The notes beneath the pieces are model-generated. The model had not been told where the DNA came from, searched no databases, and saw only the letters and a program-made list of their open reading frames with translations. A stretch of DNA of 32,431 nucleotides from an uncultured Clostridia bacterium (GTDB taxonomy: Bacteria > Bacillota > Clostridia > TANB77 > CAG-508). Positions 16,911 through 19,250 of this stretch are shown here, in pieces. Position numbers and translations under genes: made by a program. How positions within the stretch are numbered: the first letter of the stretch is position 1; each line of letters begins with the position of its first letter. The DNA lies in assembly GCA_944387395.1 (NCBI GenBank), contig CALXEU010000043.1:1-32431 (forward strand). The letters are read 5' to 3'.

Positions 16911-16939
16911 TTGCAAATAAAAATCTGTTATGCTAGAAT
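16911..16939 (+). promoter_or_regulatory. Sigma-A promoter of pseudopilin cassette 1
   Basis: -35 TTGCAA (16911-16916), 17-nt spacer, -10 TAGAAT (16934-16939), with TATGC just before the -10. The hexamers and spacing are the same in cassette 2. Transcription would start near 16946, shortly before the leader ribosome binding site. Confidence 0.8.
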
Positions 16940-16978
16940 AAAAAAGTAATAAAAAACGCAAAGGAGAAAAGTAATAAT

Positions 16979-17059
16979 ATGCTAAATTCTAAAATCCTTG
17001 GTACTCTAGAGAGAGAGAGAGAGAGAGAGAGAGAGCTTAACTTTAGTAAACAAAGCTAA
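16979..17059 (+). CDS. Leader peptide with Glu-Arg repeats, cassette 1 (26 aa)
   Basis: ATG at 16979, with AAGGAG 12 nt upstream, opens MLNSKILGTL, then four Glu-Arg pairs encoded by the GA tract, then ELNFSKQS and TAA at 17057-17059. The same start, repeat and length occur in cassette 2. The stop lies about 55 nt before the terminator. A tract of 14 or 11 GA units would move translation into a frame open to TGA at 17130-17132 (51 residues at 14 units). A tract of 12 units would stop almost at once. I infer a regulatory leader; production of the peptide is untested. Confidence 0.5.
   Translation: MLNSKILGTLERERERERELNFSKQS
17009..17035 (+). repeat. (GA)13 dinucleotide tract in leader 1
   Basis: Thirteen uninterrupted GA units plus a final G. 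Dinucleotide tracts of this length slip readily in replication. In any frame the tract encodes only Glu and Arg, so its length can change without creating a stop inside it. Confidence 0.95.
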
Positions 17060-17114
17060 GGCTTATTTAGCAAACGCAAAAATTACTTTTCAAGAAATAA
17101 ATAAAAAATATATA

Positions 17115-17154
17115 AAGATAGAAATGTTATGACAATAACACTTCTGTCTTTTTT
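17115..17154 (+). terminator. Terminator between leader 1 and the pseudopilin gene
   Basis: Outer stem AAGATAGAA/TTCTGTCTT (one G-T pair), a one-base mismatch, inner stem TGTTAT/ATAACA, GACA loop, then T6. It lies downstream of the promoter and 64 nt before the pilin ATG, so it acts as an attenuator unless a second promoter exists. TTTGCGTT just after it is complementary to AACGCAAA just before the leader Shine-Dalgarno. Confidence 0.8.
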
Positions 17155-17217
17155 GCGTTTAAAAGGTAACTCATTCCTAAAATGAGAAAATAAAAAATGA
17201 AAGGAAGAAAAAGAAAA

Positions 17218-18681
17218 ATGAAAAACAAGAGAAAAACAAAAAATCAAACGAAAGGAATAACTTTAATAGCATTAGTTGTTACGATAGTTATTTTGCTAAT
17301 TTTAGCAGGAGTAAGTATTAATCTAGTATTAGGACCAAATGGACTAATAAGCAAAGCACAGGAGGCTTCATTGAAAACAGATGAGGCTCAAGAAAAAGAA
17401 GGAATAGAGATGGCTATTTCGTCAAGTAAAATGGAAGATGTTAATACACTAGAAATATCTAAAGATAGCTTAGAAAACGCACTAAGAGAACAATTTGGAA
17501 ACAACAAGGATTTCACGTTAACAGATAATGGAGATGGAAGCTTTTTAATAAGCATGAATGATACACAAAGAAGTTACTATGTAGAAAACACAGGAGACAT
17601 AATAGACGAAAGCAATATGATAGAAATAGGAACAGCAGAAGAACTAAAAGCATTTAGAGATGATGTAAATAGTGGAAATACTTATGAAGGAAAATATGTT
17701 TATTTAACAAATGATATAACATTAGATATAAGCGAGGAATGGGAAACTATTGGTAAATATTTAAGTGAAAACACGAGTGTAACAGATGAAACTAATATAC
17801 CGTTTAAAGGAATATTTGATGGTCAAAATCATACCATACAAGGTTTAAGAATAACATCAGAAGAAAAAGGAAAAGGATTATTCGGTTTAGTGAATAAAGG
17901 AATAGTAAAGAATGTTATAATTGGAGAAAATTGCGATATTAATGCAGGAATCAGTTTTGGAAGTATTTCTGGATATTTATGTAATAGTGCAAAAGTAATC
18001 AATTGTACAAATAATGCAAATGTCAGTGCTAGTGCTAATAACTTTGGCGGAATTGTTGGAACAAATATGTATGGATGTAGTGTAGAAGGATGTACTAATA
18101 ATGGAATCCTGACTGGAGATATAATTGCTGGTGGAATAGTAGGATATAATATGGGTAATATACAAAAATGTAGAAATATAAATAAAATTATATCTGGAAA
18201 CTCAGCAGGAGGAATAAGCGGATATAACTCTGGAGTAATAAAATATTGCTTTAATAAAGGAAACATAAATTCAGAAGGAACAAATGTAGGTGGGATAACC
18301 GGTAATTTAGATGAAAAAGGAATTGTTAATAGTTGCTATAATATTGGAAATGTAGAAGGAAAAGGATCTAATATTGGAGGAATTGTTGGACATATGTATA
18401 GTGAAGATGTTAAGATATTAAATTCATATAATATTGGAAATGTATTAACAGATAATAATTTATATGGAGGAGGAATAGTAGGAGTACTTGTATCTGGCAC
18501 AATTGAAAATTGTTATCTTTTAGAAAATACTGTTAATTATGGGAATGGAATAACAAATCAAAAAGGTGTTAAAATAATGACAGATGATGAAATTAAAGAA
18601 ATTTCTACAATCCTAGGGGAAGATTTTAAAGAAGATACAAATAATATAAACAGTGGATATCCAATATTGAATTGGCAATAA
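17218..18681 (+). CDS. Pseudopilin-like surface protein with GLUG repeats
   Basis: 487 residues. A basic N-terminus (MKNKRKTKNQTKG) leads into ITLIALVVTIVILLILAGVS, a prepilin-type helix with likely cleavage after Gly13. The usual Glu at mature position 5 is Ala. Residues 14-60 are almost the same as in the second cassette. After a spacer comes a region (about 200-460) of at least six degenerate repeats with GGIVG- and NxGNI-type cores, matching the GLUG motif of surface and adhesin-like proteins; several Cys recur in phase. It is probably exported and assembled or anchored at the surface. Start: the ATG at 17218 matches the second copy and follows AAAGGAAG; an ATG at 17197 lies upstream of that site. 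Confidence 0.8.
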   Translation: MKNKRKTKNQTKGITLIALVVTIVILLILAGVSINLVLGPNGLISKAQEASLKTDEAQEKEGIEMAISSSKMEDVNTLEISKDSLENALREQFGNNKDFTLTDNGDGSFLISMNDTQRSYYVENTGDIIDESNMIEIGTAEELKAFRDDVNSGNTYEGKYVYLTNDITLDISEEWETIGKYLSENTSVTDETNIPFKGIFDGQNHTIQGLRITSEEKGKGLFGLVNKGIVKNVIIGENCDINAGISFGSISGYLCNSAKVINCTNNANVSASANNFGGIVGTNMYGCSVEGCTNNGILTGDIIAGGIVGYNMGNIQKCRNINKIISGNSAGGISGYNSGVIKYCFNKGNINSEGTNVGGITGNLDEKGIVNSCYNIGNVEGKGSNIGGIVGHMYSEDVKILNSYNIGNVLTDNNLYGGGIVGVLVSGTIENCYLLENTVNYGNGITNQKGVKIMTDDEIKEISTILGEDFKEDTNNINSGYPILNWQ

Positions 18682-18692
18682 TAAGAATTTTT

Positions 18693-18714
18693 GGAAGGTT
18701 TTCCTGCCTTTTTT
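18693..18714 (+). terminator. Terminator after the GLUG pseudopilin gene
   Basis: GGAAGG-TTTT-CCTGCC (one A-G mismatch) followed by a run of T, 11 nt after the stop codon. Confidence 0.75.
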
Positions 18715-18716
18715 TC

Positions 18717-18914
18717 TTTCTAAAGTTTGTTTTTGTTTAATTTTTTTTATACATATATGAATTAAGTACTAAACTGCGTACACAGTGGTCGTAAATTGGA
18801 AAATATAGCTAAAAATAAAAATAGAAGAAATATTTTTAACAAGCCAATGAAACAGGTAAAACAATATATAAGTAAGTATTTATTTAAATAGCTAAAACAG
18901 TAAAGTGCAGTATT
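18717..18914. other. AT-rich spacer between pseudopilin cassettes
   Basis: About 200 nt without a convincing reading frame, promoter or repeat. The one distinctive piece is a slightly GC-richer stretch at about 18772-18795 (ACTGCGTACACAGTGGTCG) containing CTGCGTACACAG, an imperfect dyad. It separates the terminator of cassette 1 from the start of repeat copy 2. Confidence 0.5.
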
Positions 18915-18945
18915 ACAATTGAAGTGAAAAAATATAGAAAAAATA

Positions 18946-18974
18946 TTGCAAATAAAAATTTGTTATGCTAGAAT
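18946..18974 (+). promoter_or_regulatory. Sigma-A promoter of pseudopilin cassette 2
   Basis: -35 TTGCAA (18946-18951), 17-nt spacer, -10 TAGAAT (18969-18974), differing from cassette 1 by one spacer base (ATTTG for ATCTG). Confidence 0.8.
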
Positions 18975-19011
18975 AAAAAAGTAAAACAAACGCAAAGGAG
19001 AGAAGTAAAAT

Positions 19012-19092
19012 ATGCTAAGTCTTAAAATCCTTGGTACTCTAGAGAGAGAGAGAGAGAGAGAGAGAGAGCTTAACTTTAGTAAACGAAGCTAA
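19012..19092 (+). CDS. Leader peptide with Glu-Arg repeats, cassette 2 (26 aa)
   Basis: ATG at 19012, with AAAGGAG upstream, opens MLSLKILGTL, then the four Glu-Arg pairs and ELNFSKRS with TAA at 19090-19092. It has the same number of codons as leader 1. The alternative frame after the tract runs to TAA at 19163-19165 inside the terminator, and that downstream stretch also has the same codon number in both cassettes with no indel. Substitutions between copies do not favour third codon positions, so coding selection on the long frame is not shown. Confidence 0.5.
   Translation: MLSLKILGTLERERERERELNFSKRS
19042..19068 (+). repeat. (GA)13 dinucleotide tract in leader 2
   Basis: Thirteen GA units plus G, the same length as in leader 1. 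Equal length in two copies that differ elsewhere suggests either gene conversion or a favoured length. Confidence 0.95.
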
Positions 19093-19146
19093 AGCTTATT
19101 TAGCATACAAAAAATTTACTCTTCAAGAAATATATATAAAATATTT

Positions 19147-19188
19147 AAAGATAGAAATGTTATAAAATATAACCCTTCTGTCTTTTTT
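19147..19188 (+). terminator. Terminator between leader 2 and the second pseudopilin gene
   Basis: Outer stem AAAGATAGAA/TTCTGTCTTT and inner stem GTTATA/TATAAC around an AAA loop, then T6. Compared with cassette 1 the stems are kept, but the loop and top pair differ, which supports selection for the hairpin. TTTGCGTT (19186-19193) again complements AACGCAAA (18989-18996). Confidence 0.8.
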
Positions 19189-19250
19189 GCGTTCTAAAAA
19201 CAGGTAACTCATACCTAAAATGAGAAAATAAAAGAAAAGGAGAAAAAACA

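Follow-up and report, generated by a model that had tools for sequence, protein, structure and literature searches.

GA-repeat leaders as probable phase-variable attenuators of prepilin-like genes in an uncultured Clostridia bacterium

How can a gene be expressed when a terminator lies between it and its promoter, and what part may a repeat in the intervening leader play? The window, i.e. the whole stretch of 32,431 nt analyzed here, is one contig (G000:C43) of a 1.24-Mb, 86-contig genome. It carries two cassettes, spaced 2033 nt apart, which have their promoter, leader, terminator and pilin gene start in common. Both consist of a sigma-A-like promoter, a Shine-Dalgarno sequence, a small open reading frame with a (GA)13 tract, an intrinsic terminator and a prepilin-like gene, in the following arrangement.

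16911..16939, + strand: promoter of leader 1, sigma-A-type, TTGCAA-N17-TAGAAT, kept in six leader copies and two leaderless pilin genes of this genome
16979..17059, + strand: leader ORF 1 in its n=13 (predicted OFF) frame, 26 aa, read directly; stop at 17057-17059
17009..17034, + strand: (GA)13 tract 1, putative slippage tract, read directly and recomputed
16979..17132, + strand: span of leader 1 in the predicted ON frame (n=14, 11 or 5), TGA at 17130-17132
17114..17154, + strand: intrinsic terminator 1, stem 17114-17151, T-run 17149-17154; folding energy -15.7 kcal/mol, z -5.4
17218..18681, + strand: prepilin-like gene 1, with N_methyl-like N-terminus KGITLIALVVTIVILLILAGVSI and GLUG repeats; alternative ATG upstream at 17197
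18946..18974, + strand: promoter of leader 2, TTGCAA-17-TAGAAT
19012..19092, + strand: leader ORF 2 in its n=13 (predicted OFF) frame, ATG at 19012, stop at 19090-19092
19042..19067, + strand: (GA)13 tract 2, putative slippage tract, read directly and recomputed
19012..19165, + strand: span of leader 2 in the predicted ON frame, closing with TAA at 19163-19165, where the 5' arm of the terminator ends
19147..19191, + strand: intrinsic terminator 2, stem 19147-19185 plus T-run; folding energy -13.1 kcal/mol, z -5.6
19251..20429, + strand: prepilin-like gene 2

Very probably, the cassettes act as phase-variable transcription attenuators that switch their pilin genes on and off, whereby the GA repeat in the leader probably decides whether a ribosome blocks the terminator. 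Direct reading and recomputation located every cassette element named by the original prediction at its position. The start of the cassette 1 gene is corrected from 17197 to 17218, according to its Shine-Dalgarno sequence and homology with cassette 2. With this start, the distance from the end of the T-run to the pilin start codon is about 60 nt in each cassette.

In thermodynamic folding of the two terminators, shuffled sequences never equalled the native energy of either hairpin. A strict consensus terminator scan missed both stems, which are long, because they are A+T-rich. A promoter-like site on the minus strand over terminator 1 (17135-17107) was rejected as a candidate, since it needs loop bases that are absent from cassette 2. 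Searching the cassettes with Rfam revealed neither a riboswitch nor another RNA family, the nearest riboswitch being preQ1-II (21.6 bits versus a threshold of 47). No alternative antiterminator was found, as the leader up to its first stop folds like its shuffles (z +0.97).

The leader of cassette 1 starts at the ATG at 16979, preceded by a Shine-Dalgarno sequence in 'cgcaaaggag', and its peptide in the present frame is MLNSKILGTLERERERERELNFSKQS, followed by the stop. With 13 units, translation ends 25 nt past the tract and about 55 nt short of the hairpin; with 12 units, leader 1 would stop at 17038-17040, no more than 6 nt past the tract; and with 14, 11 or 5 units the frame is open until a stop located where the 5' arm of the hairpin ends. 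For leader 1 this last stop, the TGA at 17130-17132, coincides with the 5' arm end or the loop start of hairpin 17114-17151. The stretch GCTTAACTTTAG..AAA after the tract provides stops in two frames and leaves the third stop-free, and its counterpart in relatives, GCTATA.TTTAG..AA, likewise has stops in two frames only. As read from the sequence, the tract itself codes for nothing but Glu-Arg. The frame logic originally predicted (a short leader at 13 units, entry into the terminator at 14 or 11, and an immediate stop at 12) is thus exact for the window, and the same constraint holds in 26/26 leader groups (see below); that both window cassettes are OFF is likewise correct by frame.

The proposed mechanism would operate as follows. 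RNA polymerase would start at the promoter upstream of the leader, and a ribosome would initiate at the leader ATG and then cross the GA tract. In the OFF state, either of the two frames whose stop lies at most about 25 nt past the tract would allow the terminator to fold, leaving the pilin untranscribed, and both window cassettes would be in this state. Slippage to a unit number of n = 2 mod 3 (5, 11, 14) would cause the third frame to be read, and a ribosome on the 5' arm would then prevent hairpin formation, such that the pilin is transcribed. We infer both slippage as the cause of switching and termination blocked by the ribosome.

The two leaders of the window belong to a set of six near-identical copies in this genome, with 13, 13, 14, 6, 13 and 5 units; a seventh, divergent leader, on contig C23, contains 10 units. 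Assuming the best upstream Shine-Dalgarno sequence and ATG for each, the 14- and 5-unit copies are ON by frame and the remaining five are OFF. The ON frame, available at n = 2 mod 3 with its Shine-Dalgarno sequence and ATG, comprises 44-51 aa. Throughout the 1.24 Mb, all tracts of (GA)8 or longer are located within these leaders, and a reversed control pattern gives almost no matches across the GTDB family, so the placement of the tracts exceeds chance. The original proposal that the tract changes length by slippage fits with these close paralogs, which differ in unit number. Two further pilin genes of the genome, on contigs C61 and C11, have the shared promoter and Shine-Dalgarno sequence with no leader, tract or terminator before the pilin, and would act as a natural control for the leader versions. 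Because the same promoter and Shine-Dalgarno sequence serve these genes directly, the promoter upstream of the leaders is that of the pilin, and the leader versions must therefore be transcribed through the terminator. Moreover, in one copy (L005) the gap between the T-run and the pilin ATG is only 27 nt with a Shine-Dalgarno sequence in between, which leaves no room for a second promoter.

The frame geometry was scored on 64 leaders that precede a terminator and a pilin gene, assigned to 26 sequence groups with one representative each. In all 26 groups the longest frame enters or passes the terminator stem and the other two frames stop early, where 6.4 were expected from shuffling the spacer alone while leaving the conserved flank and the terminator intact, and none of 20,000 simulations reached 26; the groups possibly share deep ancestry, such that their independence is approximate. 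Among 14 held-out leaders, from genomes picked afterwards, 12 have their long frame end in or past the stem and two have a stop 5 nt before it, and the other two frames end earlier in 14/14; one of these leaders (L179) shares its frame layout with L153, a leader of the first set, and the two may represent a single locus. The peptide itself is not conserved: the six copies of this genome exhibit no synonymous excess in the long frame (observed/expected 0.99) and no third-position bias. The frame is nevertheless open in every copy of this genome, and it is thus openness rather than the peptide that is conserved, as is expected if only the transit of a ribosome matters. For one relative, the G006 group, the high overall conservation of the spacer prevents the synonymous test from separating the frames.

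Repeat number varies between paralogs and between species, covering all three residues mod 3. Among pairs of loci with near-identical flanks (no more than 14 mismatches over 140 nt), 21/27 differ in unit number, which indicates that the tract changes faster than its surroundings; the counts derive from short-read MAG assemblies, one per species, so these lengths are compared between paralogs and species. By frame, 10/64 leaders of the first set and 4/14 of the held-out set are ON, proportions below one third, and the relatedness of the copies precludes a firm test against that value. The rarity of the ON state might, for instance, reflect selection for the expression of only a small number of pilins at once.

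Within the same GTDB family, H(AG)8 tracts occur in 107/390 genomes, with up to 32 per genome. In a sample of the order, the tract appears in 42/136 genomes of this family versus 2/55 genomes of other families, and one of these two cases (L143) has the same layout of start, tract and stop. In a sample of the phylum, counted by a general pattern alone, such a tract was present in 2/148 other genomes, and a search of viral contigs revealed no copies. Two architectures can be distinguished. The first (A) is that of the window, i.e. leader, then terminator, then pilin; in the second (B), present in some relatives, the pilin coding sequence itself carries the tract close to its start, and this sequence is in frame in L056 (514 aa, ON) and out of frame in most others. 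In some relatives, the long frame continues far beyond the terminator, an arrangement also compatible with simple read-through protected by translation or with translational coupling.

A few tracts were also observed in long frames that do not code for pilins, most of which have a membrane segment as judged by eye. Besides L078, these comprise L083-L085, L112, L114, L123 and L151, in which the tract is near the start of a frame of about 500-1050 aa, some ON and some OFF. The flank AAA-CC-N-TTG...TA before the tract (window 16990-17008; L064-L073, L100-L105) is conserved in two reading frames, reading KTVGTV... in most loci and TANRW.S... in one lineage. This conservation in two frames suggests that the upstream flank matters as DNA or RNA, in slippage, recombination or pausing, and not just through the peptide. 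Many GA tracts are situated about 80 bases or less from the end of a contig (e.g., G265:C2:48, G121:C2:48 and G190:C19:25), and such assembly breaks could be caused by repeated flanks or by mixed tract lengths in the population.

As to the genes under control, the whole window proteins score 18.4-18.7 bits against the N_methyl family (PF07963), versus a cut-off of 21.2, and in a six-frame search the window genes reach 22.6 and 22.9 bits, above the cut-off. The latter search detected about 16 N_methyl-like frames in the genome, which also codes for two adjacent secretion/pilus ATPases of the T2SSE family (PF00437; G000:C8:23413-25641). The pilins are presumably assembled into pili or displayed on the surface. 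With at least seven switches in the genome, type IV pilus-like pilins would therefore be expressed in varying combinations. Several of the phase-variable proteins (window 19251-20429, L056, L078) have in common a C-terminal region, FVWVPV..GFYIGRYE..GSQWD..GNV.EWT, which by eye resembles an FGE-sulfatase/C-type-lectin-like fold and has no Pfam match. Elsewhere in the window, a group II intron start (RF02005, 75.9 bits) at 32287-32431 is truncated by the contig end, and adjacent small open reading frames at 3062-3662 appear by eye to be a pair of a Phd/YefM-type antitoxin and a ParE/RelE-type toxin.

The long frame could itself code for a small functional peptide that is toggled by slippage, the downstream pilin being regulated independently. 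That a frame of this size is available with a Shine-Dalgarno sequence and ATG at n = 2 mod 3 would suit such a peptide, yet its amino acids are unconserved among the six copies, it ends at the terminator in unrelated groups whatever the length of the spacer, and in other relatives the tract lies within pilin coding sequences, all of which makes this account highly improbable. The last of these arrangements invites another interpretation, according to which the leader derives by decay from the 5' part of a pilin gene that once underwent phase variation within its coding sequence; the pilin would restart at its own ATG, and the terminator would be incidental. The unit of Shine-Dalgarno sequence, ATG and tract is indeed homologous between the two architectures, but decay would neither leave the frame stop-free into the hairpin in 26/26 groups nor preserve terminators of such strength, and a remnant of this kind is very unlikely.

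Attenuator leader peptides are often rich in one amino acid, and a ribosome could stall in a tract that codes only for Glu-Arg. The cassettes might thus be ordinary attenuators which sense, for example, the charging of Arg or Glu tRNA, without any heritable switch. However, the site of stalling would lie 80-100 nt upstream of the hairpin, the leader folds no better than its shuffles and offers no visible antiterminator, and the occurrence of all three residues of unit number mod 3 would abolish any fixed design; such sensing is considered extremely unlikely. The chance that the unit numbers are unreliable products of assembly or sequencing, and the tract functionally inert, is next to negligible: the data are from MAGs, in which the tracts frequently fall at contig ends, but the frame geometry, flanks and terminators are conserved independently of the exact count.

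The reading of the cassettes as phase-variable attenuators can be extended to the family as a whole. It is rather likely that AAA-CC-N-TTG...TA-(GA)n-GCTATA.TTTAG is a modular, family-wide switch element that plugs into either a leader upstream of a terminator or a coding sequence, gives combinatorial and independent on/off control to pilin and other membrane or surface genes, dozens in all, in gut Clostridia with reduced genomes, and evolved, at genome scale, independently of the switch known from Streptococcus gallolyticus. If the present reading of the cassettes is correct, repeat-controlled attenuation would be a recurrent solution and a main type of switch in a large family of uncultured Clostridia, the surface state of which would be directly readable from repeat counts in metagenomic reads. 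With one open and two closed frames, the geometry allows ON and OFF to be predicted by a simple rule from sequence.

Several known systems share parts of this design. In the contingency loci of Neisseria and Haemophilus, a short-unit repeat near the start codon of a coding sequence shifts the reading frame. Architecture B of the relatives is exactly such a translational contingency locus; the repeat of the window, unlike these, lies in a separate leader and would act on transcription termination. In the classical trp and his attenuators, translation of a leader peptide decides whether the terminator forms, with the state set by tRNA charging. The proposed mechanism has this decision in common with them, and differs in that the state is set by a heritable repeat number and that no alternative antiterminator was found.

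A search of the literature, thin on subscription journals, yielded no paper on GA-tract attenuators in this lineage, and a 2025 review of phase variation mentions neither attenuation nor leader peptides. The repeat-controlled attenuation that was found in the literature concerns two pilus loci of one Streptococcus. The combination of repeat slippage and leader attenuation, at which the original prediction arrived by inference, had been demonstrated before, in pil1 and pil3 of S. gallolyticus (PMC3894217). Danne et al. (2014) showed that the number of GCAGA repeats in a leader ORF sets the end of the leader, which falls either 39-49 bp before the terminator hairpin or at or in it; longer leaders turn pil1 on, and pil3 is built alike (PMC3894217). 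Both systems comprise a promoter, a leader ORF with a Shine-Dalgarno sequence and a tandem repeat of a unit not divisible by 3, a terminator and a pilus gene, and both have a frame that ends in the hairpin or beside it, with the others stopping well upstream. By each feature tested here, the GA system appears to work like the S. gallolyticus attenuator. The repeat in S. gallolyticus is a pentanucleotide of 13-22 units, whereas here it is a dinucleotide of 5 to about 20 units; the pili of S. gallolyticus are sortase-assembled, whereas the genes of the GA system code for type-IV-like prepilins. S. gallolyticus has two loci in one species, compared to at least seven in this genome and as many as 32 tracts per genome among relatives, distributed over many genera of one Clostridia family and with homologous tracts also in coding sequences. 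Since unit and genes differ, convergence between the two kinds of leader is assumed. What is new is the GA unit, its association with type-IV-like prepilins, the multiplicity within a genome, the spread throughout a family and the architecture in which the tract resides in the coding sequence itself.
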